The notes: generated from the letters alone by a model not told the origin. DNA of 64,000 nt from a virus (IMGVR_UViG_3300025168_013778:1-64000); one strand, 5' to 3'; positions 35,898 through 61,433 are shown, counted from the stretch's first letter. Program-made: numbers and translations.

Positions 35898-36266
35898 TTA
35901 AAATTTTGCTATACACCATACTTGGTTCATGCTTTTATCGCCATTCGGATTAAAGTTAGGTCTAACCTCATCAAAAGTATCTAGTGTTTGGTCAAAATTT
36001 GTTATTCTATCTAATCTAAAAAATCTCCACCCAGGAATTCTTTGTGGGGTATCTGAGGCACCTTCTCTTTGCCATGCACGTAAAACAGGATTATTTCTTT
36101 TAGTAGTACCAGCGGCAACTGGTTCGATAGTTCGCCAACCTGGGTCTAGAGTAGTGTCACCTTGATAATAAATACTAGTTACAAATCTACCTTTGATGGC
36201 TCTACAGGCGTCGTCTCTGTTAGCGACCTCCAATAATAACGTTTTTAAAGTATTATTTAATTTCAC
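35898..36266 (-). CDS. small WYL-domain-like protein with a candidate packaging tag
   Basis: A 122-residue protein starting at GTG 36266. After the N-terminal M-K-L-N-N-T-L-K-T-L-L-L-E (a possible head-targeting tag) comes I-Y-Y-Q-G-D-T-T-L-D-P-G-W-R-T-I-E-P-V-A-A-G-T (about 32-54), N-N-P-V-L-R-A-W-Q-R-E and G-W-R-F-F-R-L-D-R-I (about 79-88). The order I-x-Y, R-x-I-E-P, then W-R-x-F-R-L-D-R-I is that of WYL domains, which bind nucleic acid or nucleotides and regulate bacterial promoters and defence systems. No HTH is attached. Co-transcribed with virion-like unknown genes from the 37738 promoter. Confidence 0.6.
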   Translation of the reverse strand: MKLNNTLKTLLLEVANRDDACRAIKGRFVTSIYYQGDTTLDPGWRTIEPVAAGTTKRNNPVLRAWQREGASDTPQRIPGWRFFRLDRITNFDQTLDTFDEVRPNFNPNGDKSMNQVWCIAKF

Positions 36267-45180: not shown

Positions 45181-46029
45181 CAGTATATACCAAGACCCGT
45201 CTGTAAAAATAAGTTCTATACAACTTTCAGTCCCAAGCTCTAATGAACCCCAAGTGTCATCTATTAAGCCAACTGATGTTTTAACCACACACTCAACCAT
45301 GGATTTAATGTAAACTTTATAACCTTCTTCACCTTCTAAAGTTATTTCACTCTTTTCACCCTTAACTATTAGGTATTCTTCTTTGTTGGTTGTGTAGTTT
45401 TCGGTAATGGTCTTAATTAGTTTTTTATCTGACGATTCTGAGCCTACCCAACCATCTAATAATCCATTTTTTAACACCCCCATTAAACCAACAGCTAAAA
45501 GTTTATATTTTACACCATCAGGTCTACCATCTATATCGTAATGAACAAACTCTTTTAGTCCTAGAGAATCCACTTCTTCAGCGATTAAACCTATACTTTC
45601 TTCCCCATTATGGTTCCATTTAAATTTTTTAGGTTCTAATTGAAGTAGTTTGGCGTAGGAAGAAAAAGGTAGTGTGGTAACATCATGTTTATACCTTAGA
45701 GAAGATGAGTGTTTGGTTACTTCACCTGTAGTGGGGTTAATTTGTAAATCTAAATTATCTGCTGTGGGTATTTGGTTTGGGTTTATTTGTACTGAAGAAG
45801 CCCAAGTATTTAGGTTAGGTTGTTGATTTAAGGCTAACACAACAGTAGAACCTGTGGTTGCACTCACCGTAAAGTTGTACGTGTCCGCACTATACCAATT
45901 TGCTCTTAAGTTATCACCTACGTTTGTAGAACCAGACATAGTAGCTGTAGTACACCTATTTTGGTATATTTGTCTAGAAAAGTCAGCTCTTGTTCTTAGA
46001 CCGCTTTGACCTAAATAATCATATCCCAT
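45154..46029 (-). CDS. tail fibre-type protein with S74 intramolecular chaperone domain
   Basis: A 291-residue protein. The region S-S-S-L-R-Y-K-H-D-V (about 108-117), L-E-P-K-K-F-K-W-N-H-N-G-E-E-S-I-G-L-I-A-E-E-V-D (about 131-154) and Y-K-L-L-A-V-G-L-M-G-V-L-K matches the peptidase S74 / intramolecular chaperone domain (S-x-x-R-x-K-x-x-I, F-x-W, G-x-I-A-x-E-V) that trimerises fibres and cleaves itself off. Unusually, about 110 residues follow the domain. Its end overlaps the polymerase gene by 27 bases on the other strand and its start lies two bases after the 46031 gene. Confidence 0.72.
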   Translation of the reverse strand: MGYDYLGQSGLRTRADFSRQIYQNRCTTATMSGSTNVGDNLRANWYSADTYNFTVSATTGSTVVLALNQQPNLNTWASSVQINPNQIPTADNLDLQINPTTGEVTKHSSSLRYKHDVTTLPFSSYAKLLQLEPKKFKWNHNGEESIGLIAEEVDSLGLKEFVHYDIDGRPDGVKYKLLAVGLMGVLKNGLLDGWVGSESSDKKLIKTITENYTTNKEEYLIVKGEKSEITLEGEEGYKVYIKSMVECVVKTSVGLIDDTWGSLELGTESCIELIFTDGSWYILSSDGIKNS

Positions 46030-46030
46030 A

Positions 46031-47143
46031 TTAAATTACGTTATAAGGGTCCTGAAAAGGACGATACTGTAATGATTTGTTAAGATTTTCAGCTTCACTC
46101 GCTTTTCTCTCCATCATCTTATCTTGGCGTAACCTCTCCAATCTCCCAACTAATTCCTCTATTAATTTAGATTTTTCATCTATAGCTTCTGAAGATAAAC
46201 TAGAATAGTCCATAGTCAATTCACTATCTGGTACTTTTAATGCTCCACTAAATTTACCTCTTACCCTACCCAAAGTTTCTTTTGCTAATGCGGTAAAATA
46301 TCTTCTAGCCCACGCTTTCGCGGCTGAATTTAATTCGTACCATTCTATATCTTGTAAAGGAACATCAGAAGGTAATCTAATAATGTCCGGGTTTTGTCTA
46401 TAACAATCGTCAACATCACCATCTGTATCGTAATACCAATACCAAACCCTATCATTTTTCATTAATTTATTACTAAAATCAAAATTACCACCAGGTACGT
46501 TATATAGGTGAAGAAACTTTGACCCTTCAGGTCCAGCAGTAATTCTATAGGTTAATTCACCACCGATTAATCTATTTTTAAGATTTCTATCACCCATTCT
46601 AAGTAGTATATCATAAGCAGGCATCATATAGTAAGACCCAACAATACCCATTTGAGACATTCCCATTCCTCCTCCTATTCCACCCATACCACCCATTCCA
46701 CCCATAAATGGGTCTAGAAATGATTGGTCTAGTTCAGGTCTAGTGTACCATAAAACTTCGTTTATTTCTCTACCAGCTGGTATTTGGTATATCTGTTGGT
46801 CTTTTACTAGAGTAATGTAATCTTTTTTTAATTGCCAAGGACCTCCAGCTTGTAAACCAACAATTTTAGAATACGCGTAAGTAAAGGAAGTCTCCCAATC
46901 TAAACTCCTAGTTGTAAACGCTCTAGCTAAATCAGCCTCATCTACATTTATCCCATATAAAGAAGACCATTGGTTCTCAATTAACCAATCTTGGACATAC
47001 ATCGCATAATCTTGAATTGCGAGTTCTAAGAGAGAATCTAACATCTCATCTTCTAACTCCACACCAATAATAGGTGCCCCTAATTGATGTCTCAATTGGG
47101 TAAAGAGTTTATTTCTTTCTGTTGGGTCTATTCCTGATGACAT
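46031..47143 (-). CDS. virion structural protein (370 aa), neck/tail type
   Basis: A 370-residue protein whose start N-K-L-F-T-Q-L-R-H-Q-L-G-A-P-I-I-G-V-E-L-E-D-E (about 11-33) and later A-W-A-R-R-Y-F-T-A-L-A-K-E-T-L-G-R-V-R-G-K-F (about 287-308) belong to a class of structural proteins common in T4-like marine phages (neck or tail region). A Met/Gly-rich stretch M-G-G-M-G-G-M-G-G-I-G-G-G-M-G-M sits around 150. The exact T4 counterpart cannot be named. A possible late promoter is 8 bases upstream of its ATG. Confidence 0.55.
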   Translation of the reverse strand: MSSGIDPTERNKLFTQLRHQLGAPIIGVELEDEMLDSLLELAIQDYAMYVQDWLIENQWSSLYGINVDEADLARAFTTRSLDWETSFTYAYSKIVGLQAGGPWQLKKDYITLVKDQQIYQIPAGREINEVLWYTRPELDQSFLDPFMGGMGGMGGIGGGMGMSQMGIVGSYYMMPAYDILLRMGDRNLKNRLIGGELTYRITAGPEGSKFLHLYNVPGGNFDFSNKLMKNDRVWYWYYDTDGDVDDCYRQNPDIIRLPSDVPLQDIEWYELNSAAKAWARRYFTALAKETLGRVRGKFSGALKVPDSELTMDYSSLSSEAIDEKSKLIEELVGRLERLRQDKMMERKASEAENLNKSLQYRPFQDPYNVI

Positions 47144-47150
47144 ACGCTTT

Positions 47151-47158
47151 TATTTATA
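47151..47158 (-). promoter_or_regulatory. possible T4-type late promoter element (TATAAATA)
   Basis: On the minus strand TATAAATA lies only 7 bases before the ATG at 47143. A start site a few bases downstream would give a nearly leaderless message, so this is a less certain promoter than those at 37714/37738 and 59057/59065. Confidence 0.35.
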
Positions 47159-47192
47159 AATATATTTTAATAACTATATACCCATAAATATT

Positions 47193-48929
47193 TTAATTAA
47201 TGTTTAACTCATTAAGGATGGCTGAAAGAATATCTTCATCGTTTATATTGTCTCCCATCACTGTATCAATAATATTTTTTTTATTCTGTAAAATACTGTA
47301 TATAGTTTGTTCTATCGTGTTTTCATAAATAGGGTAAATACAAGAAACATTTTTCTTTTGTCCTATTCTAAAAGCTCGGTCTTCAGCTTGAGAATGGTCT
47401 GAGGGTACAAAACTTAAATCGTTCATTATCACCACTTCCGCCTCAGTTAAAGTTATTCCAACACCACCAGACTTTAAATTTGATATAAAAAGTTTAACTT
47501 TTGGGTCTGTTTGGAACCTGTCCACACTCTCTTGTCGTTCTTCTTTTTTCATAGAACCGTGTAGTACAACAGAAACATCTTTAAACTTATCGTACATATC
47601 CATTAAAGGTTTTGTGAAATTTGTAAACACAATTACTTTTTTCTCTTGTTCTAAAGATTGTTCTATTAACTCACAAGTTACTTTAATTTTTTCATTAGCT
47701 ATAATTTGTCTTACTTTCATTAATTTAGCTAAATGGATTGCTAAATTTTGTTCTTGATTATCGTCCGACCAACTTAAATAGTCCCCCATTTCTTTTTTAT
47801 ATTCATAAGAACTTAATTCAAGATATATTGGGGTTATAATCTTATCTGGTAAATCTATAACCTCTTCTTTTAACCTTCTTAAAACTTTATTTTTAGTTCT
47901 GTCCCTTAATTCTTCTAGGTTGGATGAACCACTGACGTTCCATATTTTTCTTCCACCAGGACCCCTAAATTGTTTTCCATCACAATACCTGGTAACATAA
48001 CCAATCCAATTTACCGACACCCTACTTTCCACCAACTTTAATAAGTTGTAGTAGTTTATTGGTCTGGATGTCATCGGTGTACCAGATAACAACCAAGTTC
48101 TGTCAGATTTATTTATTATTTCATTAGCAATTTTTGTTCTTTGAGCTTTTGTATTAGATATGTAATGAGCCTCATCTACAATCACCAAATCAAAATTTGA
48201 TTCTAATATAGTTCTATTGTCATTTCCTTTTAATGTGTGAAAGTTTTTTAATATATCATAATTTATAATGACGTACTTTCCATCCTCCCATTTTTTGCCT
48301 TCGATAATACTTATTTTTTCTTTACTGTAATTTTCTATTTCTCTTTTCCAGTTAAGTTTTAAAGATGCGGGACATATTATTAATATTTTTTTAGATTTAA
48401 GAACAATGGAGGCTATAACCGCAGCTGTTGTTTTTCCTAATCCCATATCATCGGCTAATATAAATTTTTTATTATTCACTAATTTTTCTACAGCTTCTAT
48501 TTGGTGTTCTAGTGGGGGTCTATGAGAAAATGGTTCATAGTTAACTTCTATAGTTTCTTTGTTTTCGGGAATAAGTTGGGATTTAGGGACCCAAAAAGAG
48601 TATAGTTTTTCTGATTCAATTACCCTACCCCAAATGTGAAAAGACTTATCTTTTTGAACTAGTATTTTTTCTACCCATACTTTTGTTGGTTTTGTAGGTA
48701 ATATTTTTTGCTCTTGTAGTTGGTCACCATAATAGGTGTCAATATCTACCCATTTTCTGGCTATTTTAGGTATGTCGTTAAAATACTTTAATATGTATTC
48801 TGCTTGTGAACGACCTAACTTATAGTATTTACTAACACTCTTTTCTTTAATATCCAATATATAGTTATTGGCTCCATTATATGAGGCCAACATCTCCATA
48901 GCTTTTTTTTCTGGTATTTGTATATCCAA
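47193..48929 (-). CDS. SNF2-family helicase/ATPase
   Basis: A 578-residue SF2 helicase. Walker A D-D-M-G-L-G-K-T (160-167), D-E-A-H (252-255), L-L-S-G-T-P-M (motif III) and a C-terminal Q-A-E-D-R-A-F-R-I-G-Q (motif VI) identify the SNF2/Rad54-like class. It has an N-terminal extension of 150 residues. The first codon is TTG at 48929; an alternative ATG is at 48899 (residue 11). A role in recombination, replication or remodelling of protein-DNA complexes is probable. A late-type element is 40 bases upstream of the TTG. Confidence 0.88.
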   Translation of the reverse strand: MDIQIPEKKAMEMLASYNGANNYILDIKEKSVSKYYKLGRSQAEYILKYFNDIPKIARKWVDIDTYYGDQLQEQKILPTKPTKVWVEKILVQKDKSFHIWGRVIESEKLYSFWVPKSQLIPENKETIEVNYEPFSHRPPLEHQIEAVEKLVNNKKFILADDMGLGKTTAAVIASIVLKSKKILIICPASLKLNWKREIENYSKEKISIIEGKKWEDGKYVIINYDILKNFHTLKGNDNRTILESNFDLVIVDEAHYISNTKAQRTKIANEIINKSDRTWLLSGTPMTSRPINYYNLLKLVESRVSVNWIGYVTRYCDGKQFRGPGGRKIWNVSGSSNLEELRDRTKNKVLRRLKEEVIDLPDKIITPIYLELSSYEYKKEMGDYLSWSDDNQEQNLAIHLAKLMKVRQIIANEKIKVTCELIEQSLEQEKKVIVFTNFTKPLMDMYDKFKDVSVVLHGSMKKEERQESVDRFQTDPKVKLFISNLKSGGVGITLTEAEVVIMNDLSFVPSDHSQAEDRAFRIGQKKNVSCIYPIYENTIEQTIYSILQNKKNIIDTVMGDNINDEDILSAILNELNIN

Positions 48930-48968
48930 AGTAAATAATTTAACAAATAATTATAACCATTATCTAAC

Positions 48969-48976
48969 TATTTATA
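48969..48976 (-). promoter_or_regulatory. possible T4-type late promoter element (TATAAATA)
   Basis: TATAAATA on the minus strand 40 bases before the helicase start (TTG 48929), in the 65-base gap between divergent genes. The rightward gene (48995) has no exact copy in this gap, only TATAAAGT close to its start. Confidence 0.4.
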
Positions 48977-48994
48977 AAGTATAAAGGATGTTTT

Positions 48995-49510
48995 ATGGCA
49001 AAAAATAGAGTACCAATAACAAGAATTAATAAGTTTTTCGGAAGTGAGGATATGAATCTTCAAGAACGAATAGGCATGGAGTATTTGCATGGTAATCTTA
49101 ATTTTACTTTAGTACTGTTTAGAGTTGATAGGGAAAAGACTGTTGGGGATAGGGTATATGGAGAAGCTCTTCCTGAAGAAATTAGGTATTATGCACCGGT
49201 AGAATTTAAAGCTTTAGTAAAAATAGACCAACCAAGTAACGATTCTTATGCTGGTGGAATTATGAGGTATTTAGAAAGTGGTAACTTAACATTAAGTGTA
49301 TATATAAAACACCTAGAGGAGTTAGGTACTGACATAAGTTATGGTGATTATATTGGGTATCCAGAAACAGAAGACAAAACAAGATATTTTGTTGTGGCAA
49401 ATGATGGTAAAATAGCTAACGATAATTCACACACAATAGGTGGGTATAAACCATTTTATAGAACTGTAGTCTGCACCCCAACTTCAGAAAACGAATTTAA
49501 AGGAATTTAA
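48995..49510 (+). CDS. virion structural protein (171 aa)
   Basis: A 171-residue soluble protein with beta-strand character: Y-L-H-G-N-L-N-F-T-L-V-L-F-R-V-D (about 29-44), Y-A-P-V-E-F-K-A-L-V, G-N-L-T-L-S-V-Y-I and T-R-Y-F-V-V-A-N-D-G-K. It opens a two-gene structural operon with the 49512 protein (1-base gap), directly upstream of the sheath region. Likely a neck or connector component, by position. Confidence 0.5.
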   Translation: MAKNRVPITRINKFFGSEDMNLQERIGMEYLHGNLNFTLVLFRVDREKTVGDRVYGEALPEEIRYYAPVEFKALVKIDQPSNDSYAGGIMRYLESGNLTLSVYIKHLEELGTDISYGDYIGYPETEDKTRYFVVANDGKIANDNSHTIGGYKPFYRTVVCTPTSENEFKGI

Positions 49511-49511
49511 T

Positions 49512-50840
49512 ATGGCGTTACCTAAAAAAGTTAAAAAAACATTAAATATGTATCCGGTAGTTAGGAACCAACCTCACTACCCTTCTGGATACGATGGTTT
49601 ATCTACACCTAAAAGAAGAAAACAACTAGAGGAATTTATTAGTAAAGATGGTACATTTCTACCTAAAAGTGTGTTACACGAAGATTTAGATTTGGGGATG
49701 TTGGATTTTGTTAAAGATAGGTTAAGGGTCCAGATTGATGGTAAGAGTATAAATTTTATTGACCAAATATTAACGGTACAAAGGTGGGCAGAATTTTCAA
49801 ATACTTGGAGTTTTGCTGATGATGACAGACAAGTAGAACTTCCATTTATAGTGGTGGTTAGGCAACCTGACCCCCAGTACGGAACAAACCCAGCATTAAA
49901 TTACACAATACCAGATAGAAAAGCTTTTCATTATGCAAAAGTACCTACTTGGGATGGTCAAAGAAAGGGTATGGACTTATATAAAATACCACAACCGGTA
50001 CCTATTGATATAACTTACGATATAAAGATTGTTTGTAATAGGATGAGAGAGTTAAATCAATTTAATAAAATTATGTTACAAACTTTCACTTCTAGACAAG
50101 CGTACACTTTTGTTAAAGGACACTACATCCCAATCATTATGCAATCCATAAGTGATGAAAGTCAAATAAGTGATTTAGAAAAAAGAAGGTTTTATAATCA
50201 AACTTACCAACTACAACTACAGGGGTTTTTAATTGATGGTGAAGAATTTGAAGTGAGTCCAGCAATCTCAAGGTCTATAGTCCTAACTGAAGTAGAAACT
50301 AGAGTTAAAAAAAGAAAGTCACCACCAACAGAAGAAAACCCAGATGGTCCTTTTACAGAGGTAGTGTGTTTTGCTTCTGGAGCCACGGCTAGTGCTACCG
50401 CTATAATTTCAGGTGGTTCAGTTACTGGAATAACTGTAGATGTTACAGGTTCCGGATACTCAAGCATACCTTCAGTCAATTTAACTGGTGGTGGAATACC
50501 ACCAATATCAGCAGCCACTGCTGTAGCGGTAGTAACTAATAAAGCGGTAACGGCAATAGATGTTACATTTATGGGTACTGGGTACACTAGTACCCCAACT
50601 GTGGAGATTGGGCCTCCAGAGGAAACAGATGGGAGTAAAGTATTCCAATATAGTGGTAGTTTACAGATTGTAGATATGACTAACATTACTTCTTGTTCAA
50701 TAACCATAGACGGTATATCTACACCAGCTGCTAAATTTACAGAATATTATGTTACAAAAGGACAGACATTATCGTTTGACGTTATTAAGATAGACCCATA
50801 TAAATCTTCTTGTTTGACTTTTTCAGTTGATTTTGGTTAG
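49512..50840 (+). CDS. virion structural protein with beta-repeat C-terminal part (442 aa)
   Basis: A 442-residue protein. The N-terminal 290 residues are mixed alpha/beta with an R-W-A-E-F-S-N-T-W and N-Q-F-N-K-I-M-L-Q-T-F phrases that look like T4-like structural proteins of the neck/tail completion class. The part from about 295 to 375 has two copies of a short beta repeat, I-T-V-D-V-T-G-S-G-Y-S-S-I-P-S-V (about 317-332) and I-D-V-T-F-M-G-T-G-Y-T-S-T-P-T-V (about 355-370), a repeat also seen in other phage tail proteins. Ends overlapping the RHH gene by 4 bases in convergent orientation. Confidence 0.6.
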   Translation: MALPKKVKKTLNMYPVVRNQPHYPSGYDGLSTPKRRKQLEEFISKDGTFLPKSVLHEDLDLGMLDFVKDRLRVQIDGKSINFIDQILTVQRWAEFSNTWSFADDDRQVELPFIVVVRQPDPQYGTNPALNYTIPDRKAFHYAKVPTWDGQRKGMDLYKIPQPVPIDITYDIKIVCNRMRELNQFNKIMLQTFTSRQAYTFVKGHYIPIIMQSISDESQISDLEKRRFYNQTYQLQLQGFLIDGEEFEVSPAISRSIVLTEVETRVKKRKSPPTEENPDGPFTEVVCFASGATASATAIISGGSVTGITVDVTGSGYSSIPSVNLTGGGIPPISAATAVAVVTNKAVTAIDVTFMGTGYTSTPTVEIGPPEETDGSKVFQYSGSLQIVDMTNITSCSITIDGISTPAAKFTEYYVTKGQTLSFDVIKIDPYKSSCLTFSVDFG

Positions 50841-50998
50841 TCACCTCCGTAGATGTCTGGTTTAGGTTTACACCTATCTAAGATTAATTTTTCTACAAAA
50901 GCAAACATCTTTAAACCATTTTCTTCACAATATCTTTTTAAAATTTTGTGGGTTTGTGGTGTTATCTTAATATTTTTTACTCTTTTGGGGGTTGCCAT
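50837..50998 (-). CDS. small ribbon-helix-helix-like DNA-binding protein (53 aa)
   Basis: I choose the ATG at 50998 (M-A-T-P-K-R-V-K-N-I), because the upstream 13 codons to 51037 run through a set of GTATGA repeats. The 53-residue protein has a beta strand V-K-N-I-K-I-T-P followed by T-H-K-I-L-K-R-Y-C-E-E-N and F-A-F-V-E-K-L-I-L, a typical RHH pattern (strand-helix-helix). Dimers bind DNA in the major groove through the strand and often repress their own gene. It lies in the gap between structural genes with its likely operator at 51005-51035. Confidence 0.6.
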   Translation of the reverse strand: MATPKRVKNIKITPQTHKILKRYCEENGLKMFAFVEKLILDRCKPKPDIYGGD

Positions 50999-51004
50999 AA
51001 CAAT

Positions 51005-51035
51005 AAGTATGATAAAAGTATGACTTTTTTCATAC
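51005..51035. promoter_or_regulatory. three GTATGA half-sites, probable operator
   Basis: Upstream of the RHH start and of the sheath gene are AAGTATGA (51005-51012), AAGTATGA (51016-51023) and the inverse TCATAC (51030-51035). The two direct copies are 11 bases apart and the third makes GTATGA-N6-TCATAC with the second. Spacing by about one helical turn suits cooperative RHH dimers. Transcription of the RHH gene and possibly the sheath gene may be regulated. Confidence 0.5.
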
Positions 51036-51133
51036 ACATTAATTATTTAGCCATTTTAGTTAATGCTTTTCACTTCCTTCAGAATATTTATTTAAAAATC
51101 GAATAATAATAATAACTAAAAATAATAAAAGAA

Positions 51134-54100
51134 ATGGCGAGCGATTCTAACAAAGTATTTGTTTCTCCAGGTGTTTATACATCGGAGAAAGATTTAAGTT
51201 TTGTAGCACAAAGTGTAGGTGTTACAACATTAGGTTTAGCGGGTGAGACTTTACAAGGTCCAGCGTTTGAACCTATTTTAATAAGTTCATATGGTGAGTT
51301 TCAAACTTACTTTGGTACAACTAGTACTGAAAAGTATGTTGAGACACAGATACCAAAATATGAATTATCATATATAGCAAAAGCATATTTACAACAGTCT
51401 AACCAACTATTCGTTACTAGAGTACTTGGTTATTCTGGTTTTGATGCAGGACCTTCTTGGTCTATATTGACTAGGGGTAACGTAAATTGTGCTACTATAC
51501 AGTCACAATGTACATCTTGGAATAATGCTTATGTTCCTGGTTTTGCAAGTGGTGAAGGTACTTTCCCTGGTACTGGTTACTACCAAACAGGTAATACACA
51601 ATATGATATTCAATCCCCAACAGGATTTTATTACCAAGGTTCTGGACAAACTTCTTGTTATGGAGCTAGTGGTAAAACACCAGTATCTTATTTAGTAACT
51701 AACGTTCCAACATATTGGTCGGGTACTTCTGTGACTTCTGGTCCGTTAACAACTTTCGCAAATGGGTCAATGCAACCGTTAGGTGATGACTGGTACAGTG
51801 CAAATTTACCAGCAATGCTTGTTCCGACAATAGATGAAATAATAACTAAATATGACGGTTCAACAACTACACTACGTCAAGATTTAAACTCTTTCTTTTA
51901 CGCTTTATATAATAACTTCTCTCATCCATCAGTAACTTGTGCAACGGGAGCTACACCTTGTTACACTAATTTAAGTGGTACTTCACTAGCTTATCAATAT
52001 GGTGTGAGTAATTTTGATGTTGGTAACCCTAATTCGGGTAGTACGTGGCCTGCACCAGTAATTAACCAATCAGGTGGGTTTGTTGATGATACTTTCTGGG
52101 CAGCCTTTTCTGGTGTAAGTTCTAATAGATTAAATTCACAATACAATCCAAACGGATATGCTGACGCACCTTTCTGTGATGCTGGTAGTAATACAAACCA
52201 AAATGATAGTTGGGAATATACCTTCTTTGACTATGTAGATGGTGCATATACAGGAATATCTTTTACTATTGGTGTTGATGTTGCAGCTGGAGCTGTACAA
52301 GACGCAAGTACATCAGACAAAACTAATTTATACACTGGTAATACGTCTATGACGTTTACTTACTGGAGTGCTGCTACTTATTGTGATTTCGATAATCAAG
52401 TAGTTGCGACGTTTAGGTCTAGAGGTGTTAGTACCTTATCGTCAGGTGGTCCAGAATATAGAGTAACTGGTGCTACAGACGTAAGTTTTGTATGTACTGG
52501 AAGTACGTATGATGATGTACTAGTTAATCCATTCTCTACTTTCGCTATAGATGTAACAGATAAAGAAAATAGAGGATTTAGATTTGATACTAATATGGCA
52601 ACAACGGACAAAAAATACCTTAAAAAAGTATTTGGTGTACAACCATTTGATAAAGACATGTTAGAGGTACCTATTTTTGTTGAGGAGGCTTATCCAAATA
52701 TGTTAACTCACGCATACAAAAAAGGTTTTGTTAGAGGATTACAATGTACACTATTAAATTTACCAGAATTTAGAAACCCTAATAATACAAACACAATAGG
52801 TTTCTACCAAGAACAATGGCAAACACCGGTTACACCATATGTTGTTTCTGAATTACGTGGTAGTAAAGTTTATAAATTATTTAGAGTTGTTTCAGTGGCA
52901 GATGGAAACGCTGCAAATACAGCTATTAAAATTTCAGTTGTTAATATAAGTTTAGAAAGGTCAGAATTTGACTTAATAGTAAGAGACTACTATGATACAG
53001 ATTCTTCTCCTACAGTATTAGAAAAATACACTAGATGTAGTATGAACCCACAACTTAACACTTATGTAGGTAATAAAGTTGGTACAGTTAATGGTGATTA
53101 CGAGTTAAAGAGTAGGTATATCATGTTAGATATGGACCCAGAATTAGAAATGGATAATAACCTATGGGACGCTGTTCCTTGTGGGTTTGAGGGGTACATT
53201 AGTAGGTCTTACGACGCAATGAGAAGTCCTACACTATATTATAAAACTAAGTATGACGCACCTGGTGATGTTATTTATGACCCACCATTTGGAACTACTG
53301 CTGGTTTAACTAATAGAAGTTTAAGTTCTGGTGATAAAATAAGAACAACTTATTTAGGTATTTCAGATGTAGCACCTGGAGCATATGATGATGATTTCTT
53401 CCAGTACAAAGGAAAACAAGCACCAACTAACGCTTGTAATGACTCAACTGGTGATAACTGGGCTTGTTTAACACAAGGTTTCCACTTAGATAGTGGGGCA
53501 ACTTGTTCACAACATAGTGAGTTATGTGCACACATTCTATGTGGTTGTCCATACGGTTCAACATCTTCATCAGCGACTACAGACCAGTTTGCTGTAGGTG
53601 ACGCACCATTTACAAAAGAACCTACAAACATTGGTAGTCCATACTATAAATTACAATCTAGAAAATTCACATTCATGCCTTACGGTGGTTTTGATGGGTG
53701 GGACATTTACAGAAAGTTTAGAACTAATGGTGATGGTTACATCAGAGGAAAATCAGGATTCTTAAATGGAGCTTGTAGTACTACACAATTCCCTGGAGCT
53801 ACTGGAGACGGTTCGTTTAAATTCTTAACTAAAACACCATGGGGTGAAGCTGGGTATTTCGCAACTACAGACTATTACGCTTACCTATTCGGTATAAGAA
53901 CATTTAGAAATCCGGAAGCTGTTAACATTAATGTTTTCTCTACTCCTGGTATTGATTATGTAAACAACAGTAACTTAGTTGAAGAAAGTATAGAAATGGT
54001 TGTTGGTGAAAGAGCTGACTCACTATATGTGTGTACAACACCTGACTTTAACATGTTTGTGTCTTCACCTAGTGACCCATCTAACATTATACAACCTACA

Positions 54101-54768: not shown

Positions 54769-55782
54769 ATGAAACATAACATTAGAAAATCAGAAATAAT
54801 AAAGAGGTTAGGGTTAAGATTATCTTTACGGGAACATTCAGGTATTAAACCTAGTGAAATAAAATTAACACCAAACCAATTTGATAGGTTATTGGAAAAC
54901 TATATGGATTATGAAGAGTTTGAAATGGGTGAAAACTTTGGGGATGGGGACCTAACAATAGGTGACCCAACCTTACAAGGTATGGTAACCCAATCGGACG
55001 ACAACTACTTCCAGGACAGTGAATCACCTAGTGAGTTAGATGAAGGTATGGATGATGAAATGCCTGAGGAGGATTTAGATGAAATGTGGGCTAATTTAGC
55101 TGCAGCAGCTGCCGCAACTTTAGGAGCCAAAGCTGGTGAAAAAGTTGTAGATAAATATTTAGAAGAAAAAAATGACTTAGTTAAATCACTAAATGAATCT
55201 TATAAGATAATAAGAGAAACAATTAAATCTAAAAAAGGTGGTAAACTAAGGTTATCTAATTATAATTCTAGAGTAATATCTGAATCGTTTTACGGTAGTG
55301 GAAGTAATAGAAATCACCCAGGTGAGTCTGCAGCCGCAGGTTTAGAAAATATTATTAATAGTATTAAAAAAGGTTATGCTTTTGTTAAAGACCCTAAAAC
55401 TAGAAAACAGATTGAGAATACTCTAGTTAAGTTAAGTAATTTTATGACTTATACTGCTGAATTAATGGCGTCTGGTAGAGACCAAAGAGCTCCACAAAGT
55501 TACGATTCAGTATCCAAACCATTACCTTATCCAGATTTAGACGAACCAGAAGTTTTAGAAGATATCGACGATGAGATAGATATGGGTGAGGCAAACTGGA
55601 TTCAGGATGTAAATAAAGAATCAAAAAAGGACGGTACTGAAGGTAAATTTGGTGATTGGTGTGTAAGTAAAGGTTACAAAAATGGTTGTTCTGAAGCATG
55701 TATTGAGGAAGGTAGAAGAAGAGGTGGTGTGTGGCAAGAACGAGCTGACTACGCTCATACACTTTGTGGGTTTAAAAAGTAA
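54769..55782 (+). CDS. hypothetical tagged protein with acidic middle and Cys-rich C-terminus (337 aa)
   Basis: A 337-residue protein. The N-terminus (I-I-K-R-L-G-L-R-L-S-L-R-E-H-S) resembles the basic tag of the packaged-enzyme group but is less exact. The middle is acidic (D-E-G-M-D-D-E-M-P-E-E-D-L-D-E-M) with an Ala-rich helix A-A-A-A-A-T-L-G-A-K-A-G-E-K-V. The last 50 residues form a small domain with W-C-V-S-K-G, N-G-C-S-E-A-C-I-E-E-G-R and A-H-T-L-C-G (four Cys). Follows the sheath gene by 11 bases and is therefore probably late. Function unknown. Confidence 0.5.
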   Translation: MKHNIRKSEIIKRLGLRLSLREHSGIKPSEIKLTPNQFDRLLENYMDYEEFEMGENFGDGDLTIGDPTLQGMVTQSDDNYFQDSESPSELDEGMDDEMPEEDLDEMWANLAAAAAATLGAKAGEKVVDKYLEEKNDLVKSLNESYKIIRETIKSKKGGKLRLSNYNSRVISESFYGSGSNRNHPGESAAAGLENIINSIKKGYAFVKDPKTRKQIENTLVKLSNFMTYTAELMASGRDQRAPQSYDSVSKPLPYPDLDEPEVLEDIDDEIDMGEANWIQDVNKESKKDGTEGKFGDWCVSKGYKNGCSEACIEEGRRRGGVWQERADYAHTLCGFKK

Positions 55783-55806
55783 AAATTAAATAGAACATAT
55801 AGATAT

Positions 55807-55836
55807 AAAAAAACCACCTAATAAGTGGTTTTTTTT
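55807..55836. terminator. bidirectional terminator
   Basis: AAAAAAACCAC-CTAATAA-GTGGTTTTTTT, stem up to 11 pairs (55807-55817 with 55825-55835), with T runs on both strands. It separates the converging 54769-55782 (plus) and 55846-56082 (minus) genes. Confidence 0.85.
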
Positions 55837-55845
55837 ATTTAAGGA

Positions 55846-56082
55846 TTATTTTATTAACTTCCCCCCATTAAATAAAATTATAATAAAAATCATAGGACAT
55901 AAAAAAGGAGCTTTTAAATAGTGGGTAAATATGTAAAAATTATACCAACCGTTAGAAGGCGTACCATTTCTTCCTTCTTCTATTTCTAAATAATTTTCTT
56001 GTAGTTGTTTTTGGTTAATTAAAATAAAACCAGTCATTACTACCATTGAGAGTGTTAAGTATCCTAAAATGTATTCTATCAT
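55846..56082 (-). CDS. small two-segment membrane protein (78 aa)
   Basis: A 78-residue protein with two hydrophobic segments: I-L-G-Y-L-T-L-S-M-V-V-M-T-G-F-I-L-I (about 5-22) and A-P-F-L-C-P-M-I-F-I-I-I-L-F (about 58-71), and a polar middle. Probably a host inner-membrane protein made early, given the host-type promoter at 56139-56170 some 57 bases upstream. It might act in lysis control or superinfection exclusion; nothing specific can be shown. Confidence 0.6.
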   Translation of the reverse strand: MIEYILGYLTLSMVVMTGFILINQKQLQENYLEIEEGRNGTPSNGWYNFYIFTHYLKAPFLCPMIFIIILFNGGKLIK

Positions 56083-56138
56083 CGTCTTTTTATTTTATAA
56101 TTATTATTATTATTGTTAATTCCTATTATATTATACTA

Positions 56139-56170
56139 CAAAGATAATAAAAAGTTTCGTAATTACCAAA
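56139..56170 (-). promoter_or_regulatory. Bacteroidota-type promoter (TTTG-N20-TATCTTTG), leftward
   Basis: On the minus strand TTTG (56167-56170) and TATCTTTG (56139-56146) with 20 bases between. The context TTATCTTTGTAGTAT is the same as at 1027. It drives the small membrane protein gene. Confidence 0.7.
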
Positions 56171-56189
56171 CAAATTCACATTGTTTTTA

Positions 56190-56220
56190 TTTGTTATTTG
56201 TGGTTTTTTTCGTATCTTTG
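56190..56220 (+). promoter_or_regulatory. Bacteroidota-type promoter (TTTG-N19-TATCTTTG), rightward
   Basis: TTTG (56190-56193) and TATCTTTG (56213-56220) with 19 bases between, 23 bases before the ATG at 56244. It forms a divergent pair with the promoter at 56139-56170 and drives the small HAD gene. Confidence 0.7.
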
Positions 56221-56243
56221 TATTGAATTTAAAAAACAATTAT

Positions 56244-56681
56244 ATGAAATTATCCATGTTTGATTTTGACAATACCTTGGTCAAAACACCGTACGAAGAT
56301 AGTCCTTATCTCGACACAAAAGAAAGTTTAGACTCAGAAAAATGGGAGTTTAGCTTTAATAAAGAAACAGTAAAAAACTATTTTAATGAGTTAAACGAAA
56401 AAGAAGTTGTTACTGTTTTATTAACAAATAGAATAGATAGTGTTAAAGAACAGGTTATGTCTATACTTAAAACTAAAGATATTAATTTTAATGAAGAATT
56501 ATTTATATTAGGAAAAGACGGTGATAGGTCTAAAGGTAAGAGGGTTGAAAGTTTGATAAAAAAGTATCCTGAAACTACTGAGATTGAGTATTGGGAGGAT
56601 AAAGACAAACACATAGATGATGTAGTTAACTACTGTAAAAAATACCCAAATATTAAATTAAAAGTTAATAAGGTTATTTAA
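56244..56681 (+). CDS. HAD-superfamily hydrolase (145 aa)
   Basis: I start at the ATG at 56244 (M-K-L-S-M-F-D-F-D-N-T-L-V), directly downstream of the promoter. The longer upstream frame would include promoter sequence. Motif I is F-D-F-D-N-T-L-V, motif II V-L-L-T-N-R, then K-x-x-R and a final Y-W-E-D-K-D-K-H-I-D-D (motif IV). This is a small HAD phosphatase, possibly on nucleotides or nucleic-acid ends; related domains occur in RNA-repair proteins. It has no tag. The end overlaps the kinase gene by 8 bases on the opposite strand. Confidence 0.8.
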   Translation: MKLSMFDFDNTLVKTPYEDSPYLDTKESLDSEKWEFSFNKETVKNYFNELNEKEVVTVLLTNRIDSVKEQVMSILKTKDINFNEELFILGKDGDRSKGKRVESLIKKYPETTEIEYWEDKDKHIDDVVNYCKKYPNIKLKVNKVI

Positions 56682-57339
56682 TTTTTTCTATGTTATCAGA
56701 TGGTCTATCTGATAAATCAATTAATTCTTTATTGTCGACGGTCCACACATTATCAAAAATAGGTATCATATTTCTCATATTATCTTTAACTTGTTGATGG
56801 TATTGAGCTACCATTTCAGGTGGTAAACTTCTAGGTCTTTCATCGTTTCTAAGTTGTGCGAGTTCTAAAGGTGTTCTAACATACACTAAAGTTGTGTTAA
56901 AACCATTTTCTTTGGCCAACCCATGTACTTCCTTCATTACTTTTTCTTGCCCACCACCAGCGTCATATACAACATTAACTGATTGATTTCTTTCTTGTTC
57001 TAAAAACTGTTTTAAAAATTTTACTGTCAGGTTTTTTGGGTCGGACGTTGTGTAAGTCATGTCTAAGATTTGTTGATACCCTTCAGGTGTAGATATATTT
57101 TCCTCCCACTCATCACCCCATAATTTTTTTGCTGTCATAACCCTAACCTGGTCAACATTAAAGTTTTTAACATTATCTAAATTAATTAGGTTATTAGTTA
57201 TAAAACTTTTACCAGCTCCTGGACCACCAGCGATAACCACAAAATTATTGTTTGGTTGATTAAACCCAATAACTTTTTCCTCCAACAACAATGTTGGTGT
57301 TGTTTCCTCTCTTAATATTTTTTTAATTAAGTTTCTCAT
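56674..57339 (-). CDS. P-loop kinase, zeta-toxin/PNK-like, with N-terminal packaging-type tag
   Basis: A 221-residue protein. Residues 1-21 (M-R-N-L-I-K-K-I-L-R-E-E and L-L-L-E) are the shared tag. Then I-A-G-G-P-G-A-G-K-S (36-45; Walker A), F-N-V-D-Q-V-R (about 59-65), V-V-Y-D-A-G-G-G (about 112-119), and V-Y-V-R-T-P-L-E-L-A-Q-L-R-N-D-E-R-P-R (about 142-160), the lid-like part. This order is of zeta toxins and PNK-like kinases, which phosphorylate UDP-sugars or nucleic-acid 5' ends. The gene is the last of the minus operon from the SOD gene, overlapping its upstream gene by one base. Confidence 0.72.
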   Translation of the reverse strand: MRNLIKKILREETTPTLLLEEKVIGFNQPNNNFVVIAGGPGAGKSFITNNLINLDNVKNFNVDQVRVMTAKKLWGDEWEENISTPEGYQQILDMTYTTSDPKNLTVKFLKQFLEQERNQSVNVVYDAGGGQEKVMKEVHGLAKENGFNTTLVYVRTPLELAQLRNDERPRSLPPEMVAQYHQQVKDNMRNMIPIFDNVWTVDNKELIDLSDRPSDNIEKIK

Positions 57340-57599
57340 TATCGAGTTTTTAGGTATTGGATTATTGTCTCTACCATTCCAGCATCAAAAAACCTACTAT
57401 CAAACTCACCTATTACTTCATATTCGTCTGGTTTAGGTCCTTCAACACTTATCGATTGTGGTGAATCATAATATAAAACGTATTTTGGGTGGTCGTATCC
57501 TTCGATATATTCCATCACTATTTCTCCACCCCTATATTCCTCTCTGGAAAGTTCGTCTATTTTGAACTCTTGTAGTAATTTTTTTATTTTCTTTCTCAT
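57339..57599 (-). CDS. small tagged hypothetical protein (86 aa)
   Basis: I choose the ATG at 57599, one base after the preceding stop (57601-57603). It starts M-R-K-K-I-K-K-L-L-Q-E-F, which matches the shared tag; a start at 57656 would hide it inside the upstream gene. The rest (I-V-M-E-Y-I-E-G-Y-D-H-P-K-Y-V-L-Y-Y-D, Y-E-V-I-G-E-F-D-S-R-F-F-D) is a small beta-rich domain of unknown function. It is coupled to the kinase gene by the TAATG overlap. Confidence 0.6.
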   Translation of the reverse strand: MRKKIKKLLQEFKIDELSREEYRGGEIVMEYIEGYDHPKYVLYYDSPQSISVEGPKPDEYEVIGEFDSRFFDAGMVETIIQYLKTR

Positions 57600-57600
57600 G

Positions 57601-58335
57601 TTACCAAGCTCTACAACTCCAATATCTTGCTTTCCATTTAGGCCCTGGATTATCACAATTATGTCTTGCCCTAAAAGCTTTTCTTCTTGCTGGGTTAGAT
57701 TTTTTTATTCTCATTGTTTTTTCACCTTTCTTTTTAGCGGATGTACCACCATGACCAAAATTAACTTTAACAACGTTACCTTTGTCATTTTTAACATAAA
57801 CTTTAAACTTCTTTACGTCACCTCTGGTTGGTTTGTTTAACTTTACCTTCCTACCTCTATATTCAGCTTCTTGTATTATACTTTCATTTTTAAATCCTTT
57901 ACATGCCGATGGTGTAGGTCTACATCTAGGTTTTTTTCTATTCTCACCTTTACTCCTACCACAAGGCTTACATTTACCGTCTCTACATGTGTTACAATCA
58001 ACCCAACCACCCGTTTTACCAGGAGCTCCCTTTCTTTTAAACCAATCTCTTAAACTAGTCTCTGAACTAGGTTTTTTGGTTAACTTTCTTTTTTCATTTA
58101 AATCTAATTCTTCTTTTGTGGTTGTTTTGCCCCAGTTAGACGCTCCGACTTTCCTACATTTAGATAACGCACCTGACGCATAAGCAGACGGCCAAACATC
58201 ATACCTTGCTCTTACTTTACGGTAACAAGCATCTTTTTTTGTTTTAGTTTTCTTTTTTTCATCCAGGTTAATCTCATTACCTGGTTGAAACATCATTAGT
58301 TTTTTTACCTGTGACTCTGTTAGTTTAATTTGCAT
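57601..58335 (-). CDS. basic, three-module cysteine-rich protein (244 aa)
   Basis: A highly basic protein of three recognisable small modules. About 36-70: A-C-Y-R-K-V-R-A-R-Y-D-V-W-P-S-A-Y-A-S-G, then S-K-C-R-K-V-G-A-S-N-W-G. About 93-150: L-R-D-W-F-K-R-K-G-A-P-G-K-T-G-G-W-V-D, C-N-T-C-R-D-G-K-C-K-P-C-G-R-S and C-R-P-T-P-S-A-C-K. About 158-244: V-K-L-N-K-P-T-R-G-D-V-K-K-F-K-V-Y-V, F-R-A-R-H-N-C-D-N-P-G-P-K-W-K and Y-W-S-C-R-A-W. Such modules occur singly or together in marine phages and giant viruses (DUF5872-type and relatives, from memory). Zinc or DNA binding is likely. It stands in the late SOD operon. Confidence 0.6.
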   Translation of the reverse strand: MQIKLTESQVKKLMMFQPGNEINLDEKKKTKTKKDACYRKVRARYDVWPSAYASGALSKCRKVGASNWGKTTTKEELDLNEKRKLTKKPSSETSLRDWFKRKGAPGKTGGWVDCNTCRDGKCKPCGRSKGENRKKPRCRPTPSACKGFKNESIIQEAEYRGRKVKLNKPTRGDVKKFKVYVKNDKGNVVKVNFGHGGTSAKKKGEKTMRIKKSNPARRKAFRARHNCDNPGPKWKARYWSCRAW

Positions 58336-58366
58336 ACTAATAAATATAGATTTTAGTTTAATTATT

Positions 58367-59032
58367 TTATTTTAACTCTTGGTATTTTTTGGATACGTTA
58401 TCCCAATTAACTATCTTCCAAAAGTTTTTTATATATTTTTTTCTGTCTGCCATATAGTTTAGATAGTAGGCGTGTTCCCAAACATCTAAACCTAATAAAG
58501 GTTCACCTAAGTTATCCATTAAAGGGTTGTCTTGGTTGGGGGTACTTACAATTTTTAGTCTTCCGTTTTTAATCACCAACCAACACCAACCAGAACCAAA
58601 TACTTTAGCGGCTTCCTCATCAAATTGTCTTTTAAAGTTATCTAAACTACTAAAGTCTTTATTAATCTTTTTCTTAAGTTCATCTGAAAGTTCTGTTTTA
58701 TTAGGTGTTATGTAATCTTTAAAAAATAAACTGTGATTATAGTAACCTCCGGCATTATTTCTCGTAAATGTATCATAGTTCTTAATTCCCCTAATAATCT
58801 TTTCTATATCTTTAGAAGGATTTTTTCTTTTAGATAGAGCTTCATTTAGTTTGGTGGTGTAACCTTTATAGTGTTTATTGTAGTGTTCCCACATTGTTTC
58901 ATAACCTACGAAGTCTTTTACGGAATTATAATCATATGGCAAAGTAACTCTCCTAAAGAATGTTTTTTTTGCCTCAACTAGTAAATCTTCGTTAGATTGT
59001 TCCCTTAATATTTTTTTAATTAAATCTCTCAC
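58367..59032 (-). CDS. sodA: manganese-type superoxide dismutase with N-terminal packaging-type tag
   Basis: A 221-residue SOD starting at GTG 59032. The shared tag M-R-D-L-I-K-K-I-L-R-E-Q is followed by D-L-L-V-E-A-K-K (17-23), an L-x-E-A site resembling T4 gp21 cleavage sites. The SOD domain follows from about 25: L-P-Y-D-Y, W-E-H-Y-N-K-H (48-54; H50), N-N-A-G-G-Y-Y-N-H-S-L-F (92-103; H100), F-G-S-G-W-C-W-L-V, and L-D-V-W-E-H-A-Y-Y (182-190; D183 and H187). The four metal ligands are all present. A-G-G before the second ligand and N-Q-D-N-P-L-M are the manganese-type marks. It would detoxify superoxide. Confidence 0.92.
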   Translation of the reverse strand: MRDLIKKILREQSNEDLLVEAKKTFFRRVTLPYDYNSVKDFVGYETMWEHYNKHYKGYTTKLNEALSKRKNPSKDIEKIIRGIKNYDTFTRNNAGGYYNHSLFFKDYITPNKTELSDELKKKINKDFSSLDNFKRQFDEEAAKVFGSGWCWLVIKNGRLKIVSTPNQDNPLMDNLGEPLLGLDVWEHAYYLNYMADRKKYIKNFWKIVNWDNVSKKYQELK

Positions 59033-59056
59033 TGTTTCCTATAACATTTTATATAA

Positions 59057-59064
59057 TATAAATA
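59057..59064 (+). promoter_or_regulatory. T4-type late promoter element, rightward (deoC operon)
   Basis: TATAAATA 24 bases before the deoC ATG at 59089. It is immediately followed by its own reverse complement (59065-59072), giving the 16-base palindrome TATAAATATATTTATA in the 56-base divergent gap. Confidence 0.6.
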
Positions 59065-59072
59065 TATTTATA
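59065..59072 (-). promoter_or_regulatory. T4-type late promoter element, leftward (sod operon)
   Basis: TATAAATA on the minus strand, 32 bases before the SOD start at 59032. Back-to-back with the rightward element, it would direct the SOD-to-kinase operon late in infection. Confidence 0.6.
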
Positions 59073-59088
59073 TACAAACAACAACCGC

Positions 59089-59895
59089 ATGCTGAATGAA
59101 GAAATAAAAAGAATTAAGTCTCTCATGATAATAAGAGAGCAAGAAGAGATGAATTTATCGTCTTATTTGGATTCTACTTACTTAAAAACACCAGAACAAG
59201 CGGGTATTGGTGAAGAAGAAACAGACGTAATAATATTTGATACAATTAAAGATGCCATAGAACATAATATGAAGTTAGTTATGATAAGGCCTGAGTATGT
59301 TAAAACAGCTCGTGAATTCATAGATAGTAAAGGAGCTAATGTGTTAGTTGGTACCGTTATAGGTTTTCCTAATGGTGATACTGGTCAGGGTGCTAAAATG
59401 GATGAGGCTATAAAAGCTATAGAGGATGGGGTGGATGAATTAGATTTTGTTGTAGATTACAAAGCTTTTAAAAATGGTGACCTAGATACAATCATGAAAG
59501 AGGTTAGTGAAGGAACAGCTATTGGTATAGCAGATGGAAAGGCTGTTAAGTGGATTATAGAATCAGCAGCTTTAAATGACGAAGAAATAGCTGAACTTAC
59601 AAGATTAATTAGTAAAATAGTGATAGAAACAGTTGGTCAGGAAAAAGCTAGTAATGTTTTTGTTAAAACGTCAACAGGATTTTACCAGTCCGATGACGGT
59701 AGACCAATAGGTGCAACACCAGAAGCGGTAAGTATTATGAAGTCCAACTCTGGACCTTTACAAGTTAAAGCGTCTGGTGGTATTTATAGTAAAGAAGACG
59801 CTGAAAAAATGATAGGGGCGGGTGCAACTAGATTAGGTACTTCTGCCGCTAAAGATATAATGGTTGGGAATAAAATAGATAATACGGAATACTAA
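59089..59895 (+). CDS. deoC: deoxyribose-phosphate aldolase with N-terminal packaging-type tag
   Basis: A 268-residue aldolase. Residues 1-20 (M-L-N-E-E-I-K-R-I-K-S-L-M-I-I-R-E-Q-E-E) are extra and similar in kind to the shared tag. The enzyme follows: Y-L-D-S-T-Y-L-K (26-33), V-G-T-V-I-G-F-P-N-G (87-96), D-E-L-D-F-V-V-D-Y (116-124; D119), F-V-K-T-S-T-G-F (191-198; Schiff-base K193) and V-K-A-S-G-G-I (226-232; K227). It splits 2-deoxyribose-5-phosphate into glyceraldehyde-3-phosphate and acetaldehyde. The catalytic triad is complete. Next to a deoxyribosyltransferase-like gene, overlapping it at TAATGA. Confidence 0.93.
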   Translation: MLNEEIKRIKSLMIIREQEEMNLSSYLDSTYLKTPEQAGIGEEETDVIIFDTIKDAIEHNMKLVMIRPEYVKTAREFIDSKGANVLVGTVIGFPNGDTGQGAKMDEAIKAIEDGVDELDFVVDYKAFKNGDLDTIMKEVSEGTAIGIADGKAVKWIIESAALNDEEIAELTRLISKIVIETVGQEKASNVFVKTSTGFYQSDDGRPIGATPEAVSIMKSNSGPLQVKASGGIYSKEDAEKMIGAGATRLGTSAAKDIMVGNKIDNTEY

Positions 59896-60779
59896 TGAGA
59901 AATAAAATTAAAAATCTTTTAAGAGAATTCGAAGAGAATAAGAATACCGCATATGATGAAATTTACTCACTACCTTACAATTTAAGGAGTGAATTACAAA
60001 ACCAATTAGAAATGTTGGTTTCTGCCGACCAAACTATGGATTTAGAGGAAATTGAGTACGGTGGTATACCGGAGTTAAAATCTTCTGGTAACATTTTTAA
60101 CCAAATAAGTAAGTGGTTTAAGAGGTACTTAACAGATAAAGCTTCTGATTTTTTAATTAATGCAAGTGCAGATGAAATGCAAGACACCATAAAAATGTTA
60201 AAAGTTCTTGACCCTAAAGATATGAATGGAATCTTTGAACCTAGAGCAATGTATTTGGGTGGTGGTATTGATTTTGCCACAGACGCTTTATCTTGGAGAA
60301 CAAAAGTAGAGGATTATTTTGGTGAGGGACACGTAGTTAAGGGTACTAGGTTATTAGACTTGGTAACTACAGGTACAATGGACTTTAAGGGGTTAGAGAC
60401 ACCGGCAATATTAAATCCTTTAAGAGCTGAAACAGTAAGGGATGAAGATGAAGAATTCCAAAACCTTTTTAAAGCGTGGAAAGCTAATAAATTAACAGGT
60501 GAGCAGTTTGAGGTGTTTAGGGAAAAAATTAGAGAACAAATTGTTGTACAAGATTTATACATGTTAAAAGTTTGTGACACTAACTTAATTAATTTTGATG
60601 GTACTGCTGGTGCTGGAACGTTTGGTGAAGCACAGGTTAGTGCATTAAAAAATTCACAAGTATTTATTTGGTTAACTAATGGAATGAAAATATCAAATAT
60701 TTCCCCATGGATGATGCCTTCTATAACTAAGATATTACAAGAAGATGAATTATTTCCTTTTTTAGCCAACTTTAAATAA
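59895..60779 (+). CDS. nucleoside 2-deoxyribosyltransferase-like protein, tagged
   Basis: A 294-residue protein with the exact tag M-R-N-K-I-K-N-L-L-R-E-F. The body (about 115-294) has A-M-Y-L-G-G-G-I-D-F-A-T-D-A-L-S-W-R (118-135), I-V-V-Q-D-L-Y-M-L-K-V-C-D-T-N-L-I (216-232), G-A-G-T-F-G-E-A-Q (239-247; E245 as the probable catalytic Glu) and I-S-P-W-M-M-P-S-I-T-K-I. This order is of NDT-fold enzymes: x-Y-L-x-G x-x-x-x-x-W-R, D-x-x-x-x-x-x-x-D, then G-T-x-x-E. It may exchange or hydrolyse the base of a deoxynucleoside (or another nucleotide glycosidic bond). Residues 12-110 are an added helical part. Homology is inferred by motif order. Confidence 0.6.
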   Translation: MRNKIKNLLREFEENKNTAYDEIYSLPYNLRSELQNQLEMLVSADQTMDLEEIEYGGIPELKSSGNIFNQISKWFKRYLTDKASDFLINASADEMQDTIKMLKVLDPKDMNGIFEPRAMYLGGGIDFATDALSWRTKVEDYFGEGHVVKGTRLLDLVTTGTMDFKGLETPAILNPLRAETVRDEDEEFQNLFKAWKANKLTGEQFEVFREKIREQIVVQDLYMLKVCDTNLINFDGTAGAGTFGEAQVSALKNSQVFIWLTNGMKISNISPWMMPSITKILQEDELFPFLANFK

Positions 60780-60782
60780 AAG

Positions 60783-61433
60783 ATGCCTTATAGAATAAAA
60801 AAACATACATTGTCTGAAAGTGTTAATCAAAATCGATTAATACTGTTGGATGTTGACGACACAATTCTTAAACCGTCACAAATCTACATATATAGAAATT
60901 TACCAACAGACTCTAGTGAGGTTAAACTTACCCCGTCGGAGTATGCTCATGAAAATGTTACAGAAGAAAATAAAAACTATTACGACTATAGAGACTTCTT
61001 AGACCCAATAAAAATAAAAAGGTCAATATCCCAAGCAGAACCAATAATATCTAACCTATCAATCATGGACGACCTTTTATCTAGAGGTTATCAATTAGGT
61101 ATTTTAACAGCTAGGTCTTCTGAAGACGTAGTTTTTAAGGGATTAAAGGATTGGTTAATGTATAAAGATAAAGATGGTAAGTTAATCCCTATTGGTGATA
61201 AGTTAAATAGAGAAAATGTATTTGCTGTTAATGACACACAAAGGGTTAAGGGGTTAAAGGGTGAAACTGACTACGATAAAAAAGCTGAGGTGATGGAGTC
61301 ACTATTAGAAGTGTATGATGAAATATTATTTATAGATGACGACATTAAGAACATTAAAGAAATGAGAAGGCTTAAAGGAAGATTATCAAGAGAACTAAAT
61401 AATAAGCTTTTTATAAAGCATGCTTTATATTAA
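60783..61433 (+). CDS. HAD-superfamily phosphatase (216 aa), possibly tagged
   Basis: A 216-residue protein. After a basic start M-P-Y-R-I-K-K-H-T-L-S-E-S comes R-L-I-L-L-D-V-D-D-T-I-L (19-30; motif I DxDxT), Y-Q-L-G-I-L-T-A-R-S (about 103-112; motif II) and E-I-L-F-I-D-D-D-I-K-N-I (about 179-190; motif IV). The residues between 50 and 95 are a cap-like insertion. Related to polynucleotide 3'-phosphatases and nucleotidases. Third gene of the deoC operon, 3 bases after the NDT-like gene; the T4 Pnkp kinase and phosphatase are one protein, here kinase and HAD are separate. Confidence 0.8.
   Translation: MPYRIKKHTLSESVNQNRLILLDVDDTILKPSQIYIYRNLPTDSSEVKLTPSEYAHENVTEENKNYYDYRDFLDPIKIKRSISQAEPIISNLSIMDDLLSRGYQLGILTARSSEDVVFKGLKDWLMYKDKDGKLIPIGDKLNRENVFAVNDTQRVKGLKGETDYDKKAEVMESLLEVYDEILFIDDDIKNIKEMRRLKGRLSRELNNKLFIKHALY
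61412..61429. repeat. perfect 18-base palindrome at gene end
   Basis: TATAAAGCATGCTTTATA is a perfect palindrome at the last codons of the HAD gene (stop at 61431-61433). No T run follows, so it is a poor terminator; it could be a protein-binding site or a hairpin in mRNA. The following 146-base gap to 61580 is AT-rich with another inverted repeat (GCATA...TATGC near 61455) and no clear promoter. Confidence 0.4.

Follow-up and report, generated by a model that had tools for sequence, protein, structure and literature searches.

The window analysed here is 64,000 bases of the 64,359-base IMG/VR virus contig IMGVR_UViG_3300025168_013778, a single fragment that carries T4-like tail genes, including one for a sheath protein that matches T4-like sheaths. 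Megablast of the window against phage records found no nucleotide match to known phages, and a search of Rfam produced no match. A long close relative, the 232-kb contig G003, has PolB, helicase, sigma factor, dUTPase and tail genes in common with it. Four proteins of the window start with a strict 11-residue leader of the form M[RK]xxIK[KN][IL]L[RQ]E, here called type A, and proteins that bear a leader are referred to as tagged. The tagged genes and their leaders are:

56674..57339, minus strand: AAA_33 / zeta-toxin-like P-loop kinase (Pfam E 2.5e-10)
57307..57339, minus strand: type A leader of the kinase, MRNLIKKILRE; the orthologues L243-L247 keep the leader
57567..57599, minus strand: type A leader MRKKIKKLLQE of an 86-residue protein (57339-57599); the G003 homologue has MKARIKKILRE
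58367..59032, minus strand, GTG start: Fe/Mn superoxide dismutase (SOD; Pfam E 3.9e-41, PDB matches to E 4.6e-57)
58973..59032, minus strand: 20-residue N-terminal extension of the SOD, made up of the leader MRDLIKKILRE and a second site, DLLVE, as judged from an alignment with MnSOD and from orthologue N-termini
59895..59927, plus strand: type A leader MRNKIKNLLRE of a 294-residue protein; E11 is invariant in eight homologues
59895..60779, plus strand: the tagged 294-residue protein itself

When the N-termini of all window proteins were shuffled 2000 times with their composition kept, the strict leader occurred 0.0055 times on average and never more than once. The leader that a preliminary description of the window had noticed on these four proteins is real, and the enzyme names given there hold for the SOD, strongly, and by Pfam for the kinase and for the DeoC-like protein listed below. 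The name 'NDT-like', given there to the 294-residue protein, found no support, as there was no Pfam match and no PDB profile match, and the AlphaFold model (pLDDT 47) was too poor for a fold search.

Looser versions of the leader had also been claimed for several other proteins, and this part of the observation was only partly confirmed. The further leaders considered, one of which (58258) had not been claimed, are:

58258..58335, minus strand: type B leader MQIKLTESQVKKLMMFQPGNEINLDE of the 'DVWPSAYA/HVA1' protein (57601-58335); homologues in L014 and G003 have a type A leader
59089..59139, plus strand: type D leader MLNEEIKRIKSLMIIRE of DeoC; the terminal [ILV]xE is kept in 6/6 orthologues
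59089..59895, plus strand: DeoC-like deoxyribose-phosphate aldolase (Pfam E 2.4e-6)
36228..36266, minus strand: leader-like N-terminus MKLNNTLKTLLLE of a WYL-like protein (35898-36266); [IL]xE is in place in six relatives
54769..55782, plus strand: 337-residue protein after the tail sheath, claimed leader unsupported
60783..61433, plus strand: HAD-like protein, claimed leader weak

The N-terminus of the WYL-like protein (Pfam WYL E 0.0033, below the cut-off) can be retained, and so can that of DeoC, although the latter is a different type of leader rather than a looser form of the same one. The claims for 54769 and 60783 were dropped, the first because the G003 homologue has no such leader, and the second because it did not fit the position pattern and had no relative in the genomes searched. 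The minus-strand protein at 57601-58335, which had not been listed, starts with the second leader type, MQIKLTESQVKKL...

Distribution of the leaders in related contigs

In related IMG/VR contigs we found 182 distinct tagged proteins, which fall into 76 clusters; downstream of the leader, no similarity between the clusters could be detected. The recognised domains include SOD, AAA_33 kinase, NUDIX, C39 peptidase, SET, SprT-like and GP88; one tagged protein of 480 residues combines M23, peptidoglycan-binding and SLT domains, and another (L041:2527-3069) is weakly matched to the anti-CBASS protein Acb1 (E 4.5e-4, below the cut-off). Across the 76 clusters, the columns up to residue 11 are rich in information; residue 12, an E or S, is intermediate, and hardly any information is left beyond it. 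Because the search pattern had preset several columns, a second test was performed with residues 8-11 left free. I-L-[KR]-E was still dominant, and [LI]xE was found at residues 9-11 in 46/57 N-terminal but only 3/12 internal matches. Counting back from the terminal E, positions E-2, E-3 and E-6 are hydrophobic in all 76 representatives, part of this register having been fixed by the search pattern. In every case listed, the same peptide on unrelated proteins is encoded by different DNA, and the peptide is therefore the conserved entity.

The DNA pattern of the leader gave at least 120 matches in viral contigs and 11 in bacterial and archaeal genomes totalling 257 Gb. Of these 11, one is in a 63,985-bp contig of the Prochlorococcus single-cell genome AG-409-L21, which is probably the same phage contig as the leader-bearing G024 (63,985 bp), and the link to this host is uncertain. 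The 'PSAYRSGAIVRCRK' protein of a cultured relative, Flavobacterium phage immuto 2-6A, contains NIIKEILSE|KK. No publication on this leader was found in the literature searched, with subscription journals mostly outside that search.

Type B leaders, of the form MKKIIKLNENDIENLVKKIIKE, occurred 43 times at N-termini and twice internally, while types C and D (ISSEERNRIRGLHITE and LNEEIKRIKSLMIIRE, respectively) were rarer with an internal background that is not negligible. In every type, the last three residues are a hydrophobic one, a variable one and E. The type B-tagged protein of the window belongs to the DVWPSAYASGAL/HVA1 type, and 380 phage records, most of them of marine cyanophages, contain relatives; in the two phage records examined, a gene of this type was 1-3 genes from the terminase gene.

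Seven relatives were examined for leaders on other genes. None was found on polB, helicases, recA, ssb, primase, thyA, dUTPase or sigma, nor on terminase, portal, sheath, tube, hub or wedge. Several tagged proteins are found together at 53-60 kb in G003, adjoining a protein of 1787 residues (45839-51202; L134:5839-11202) that has the kinase of the window as its last domain, joined by ERLLRE|EKVVGF. This large protein also has an HEHTH stretch and resembles a polyvalent injected protein.

The leader junction and the prohead protease

The SOD of the window matches both Fe/Mn SOD Pfam domains and, on inspection, has the metal ligands of the cellular enzymes. Its residue 24 aligns with residue 4 of cellular MnSOD, and it therefore has approximately 20 extra residues at the N-terminus, with the second site, LLVE, ending at residue 20. 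The N-termini of SOD orthologues are of type A, type B or unrelated to either, but each has [LIV]xE as its end, with the PY of the domain 9-11 residues further on. Type A-tagged orthologues have LVTE, LLTE, FLSE or IIAE where the window has LLVE; L220 has lost the first E (ILRS) and kept LLTE; and L222-L227 have a type B leader ending in LILE or LLLE. In two relatives the SOD is part of a longer fusion protein with LLITE or LLTE ahead of the domain. Read directly from these sequences, the leader of the SOD is swapped whole while the [LIV]xE junction persists. The kinase orthologues L243-L247 similarly retain LLLE, FLSE or LLYE ahead of EKV in addition to the leader, and SOD and kinase were the only families in which a further [LI]xE downstream of the leader was conserved. 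In G013 (82409-83935) and G014 (55243-56781), about 290 uncharacterised residues follow the SOD domain within the same protein. A search of genome contigs for bacterial relatives of the window SOD found none.

A SOD is also encoded by the jumbo phage PA5oct (Arenbergviridae), which by inspection has a gp21-like protease. This Fe/Mn SOD (EST35_0261) starts MNDSIKKYISIAE|A, with the site SIAE, so that its N-terminus ends IAE|A, and is marked 'ESI-MS/MS' in its database record. However, PA5oct is a distant phage, and its SOD is 27% identical to that of the window and has a different leader.

Peptidase_S77, the gp21-type protease, was found in 11 of 24 leader-bearing contigs, G003 among them. In seven relatives, L[IL]NE|[AST] is retained towards the N-terminus of the major capsid protein, immediately ahead of the mature domain, corresponding to the cut after FLTE-65 in T4 gp23, from which 65 residues are removed (PMC9958956). 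Between the protease gene gp21 and the scaffold gene gp22, G009 encodes five leader proteins, four of type B and one of type A, and G006 encodes one of each. T4 gp24 loses a peptide of 10 residues to gp21 (PMC9958956), and this propeptide, MAKINELLRE, is close to MRNKIKNLLRE of the window, with nearly the same form (I-x-x-[LI]-L-R-E). In contrast to the enzymes considered here, which would be cargo, gp24 is a shell protein.

The capsid-targeting sequence (CTS) of the T4 internal proteins IPI-III (Mullaney and Black 1996; PMC9026906, PMC9958956) also consists of approximately 10 N-terminal residues with hydrophobic E-2, E-3 and E-6 and an [LI]xE end, and likewise precedes mature proteins that are unrelated to one another, in phages that encode a gp21-type protease. 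Mutation of the IPIII CTS identified residues 4 and 7 as needed for targeting and 8 and 10 for processing (PMC9026906). These are E-6, E-3, E-2 and E, and the same positions are invariant or nearly so in the leader. The likeness is one of residue pattern alone, with no sequence homology to T4 MKTYQEFIAE; the leader here is basic (MKxLIKKIL[KR]E), comes in several types, and is found on at least 76 unrelated clusters spread over the contigs, with metabolic and cell-wall enzymes among this putative cargo.

A putative capsid-targeting propeptide

The leader is best read as a capsid-targeting propeptide, because of the T4 register, the gp21 and capsid site in relatives, the sister leaders in the prohead cluster, the untagged replication genes and the SOD junction. 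We consider it likely that the cargo is cut in the head by the gp21-type protease and ejected with the DNA, and the leader most probably works like the T4 CTS without visible homology to it. A short amphipathic N-terminal helix of type A, B or C/D would mark the prohead-bound proteins of this T4-like phage group and bind to the prohead core. The [LI]-x-E terminus would be the site of the maturation protease, which would cut behind the E once the shell had assembled. The leader would then depart, and the mature enzyme would remain in the head to be ejected along with the DNA. The benefit might be redox protection, nucleotide chemistry, or an attack on the cell wall or on defence just as infection begins.

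Several points weigh against this. Neither gp21 nor gp23 is on the window contig, a 64-kb fragment that lacks the portal as well. The leader-bearing contigs were collected via the leader itself and frequencies among them are therefore biased. In PA5oct, a bare N-terminal [LI]xE was not predictive of detection by mass spectrometry (20/93 versus 39/137), and since the list of detected proteins includes likely contaminants, e.g. ribonucleotide reductase, the detection of the PA5oct SOD is weak evidence. The preliminary description, which had proposed the same capsid-targeting and gp21-type processing, stated that each leader was followed or ended by [LI]xE. This holds for the end of the leader itself, but an extra site at residues 14-40 is not enriched (23/69 tagged, 477/1175 untagged proteins). 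Apart from this and the two proteins that do not fit, the capsid-targeting, gp21-type reading of the leader is well supported by sequence. As both of these controls were negative, the [LI]xE motif alone is weak, and the argument rests on the whole leader and its context. We infer packaging, cleavage and injection in this phage group, including binding to the core, from the analogy with T4.

The tagged proteins may instead be packaged and processed but act as core filler or protect the DNA, as a SOD might against oxidative damage in sunlit water, rather than being delivered effectors. All of the targeting evidence fits this equally and the conserved chemistry of SOD is as useful to a virion as to a cell. 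However, the tagged M23/SLT/peptidoglycan-binding protein, the zeta-like kinase and the weakly matched Acb1-like phosphoesterase (E 4.5e-4) have no obvious use in the virion, and T4 IPI is injected together with the genome (PMC9958956) while Alt is packaged and then injected (PMC5512222). This explanation appears unlikely.

A second possibility, which we find distinctly improbable, is that the leader is an uncleaved address for the inner membrane or for a phage-made compartment, with [LI]xE being no more than the place where an amphipathic helix stops. Membrane binding is known for helices of this short, basic and amphipathic kind, whereas cleavage of the leader is a prediction. Against this are the exact [LI]xE end, retained through the exchange of SOD leaders, the leader genes between gp21 and gp22, and the register of T4 gp24 and the CTS.

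It is very doubtful that the likeness is due not to selection on the peptide but to the DNA or RNA around gene starts, where a promoter or a signal for translation could have been copied together with the first codons. An oriented ATATTTAT motif does lie upstream of 28/83 tagged and 238/1548 other genes, and Ile8 is mostly ATA (62 of 76 representatives, while Ile5 is mostly ATT). However, most tagged genes do not have the motif, most genes with the motif have no leader, and the E and L of the leader are conserved despite varying synonymous bases. Copying of the leader at the DNA level was rejected on account of the differing DNA behind identical peptides. In G003, G006, G009, G010 and G024, copies of ATATTTAT lie predominantly in a single orientation (forward 266 times, reverse 52 times), and in most cases the distance to the start codon is 12-13 or 20-26 bases. 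Genes for the tail tube and the portal have it upstream in some of these genomes, but none of the replication genes that were checked does, and the motif may be a late promoter whose leader RNA is very short. Descent of the whole tagged set from one ancestral gene, suggested by tandem arrays of near-identical tagged paralogues (e.g. G013 85764-87111, L116), has almost no chance of being correct and is refuted, as the preliminary description had argued from the unlike functions, by the 76 clusters dissimilar behind the leader with their SOD, P-loop kinase, M23/SLT, NUDIX, C39 and GP88 domains.

The capsid-targeting propeptide proposed here can be compared with two other systems. Phage polyvalent proteins (Iyer et al. 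2017, PMC5512222) are predicted to be packaged, injected effectors with multiple activities, and the 1787-residue protein of G003, with an HExxH-like stretch and the kinase domain of the window, is similar; the proteins of the window, in contrast, have a single domain and a leader each. The ejection proteins of the phiKZ-like phage SPN3US (PMC5694885) have propeptides for the prohead protease that are thought to target head proteins, but these are mostly longer than 100 residues and have another protease motif.

It is somewhat favoured that, in a large clade of uncultivated T4-like phages, a small set of interchangeable N-terminal address peptides forms a general loading system, in which any enzyme gene that gained the peptide would yield virion cargo. 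SOD, DeoC, kinases and peptidoglycan hydrolases would be included, and possibly counter-defence enzymes that act before phage gene expression. If so, the first 11-25 residues of a protein from these phages would reveal whether it is loaded as head cargo and probably injected, and many 'hypothetical proteins' would become predicted effectors. Some so-called auxiliary metabolic genes would then work at entry, as delivered protein, and not late in infection, and the leaders could be used as ready tags to load cargo into phage heads.

Elsewhere in the window, bases 7844-31145 are a long minus-strand stretch of genes whose translations read as glycosyltransferase-, sugar epimerase- and aminotransferase-like.

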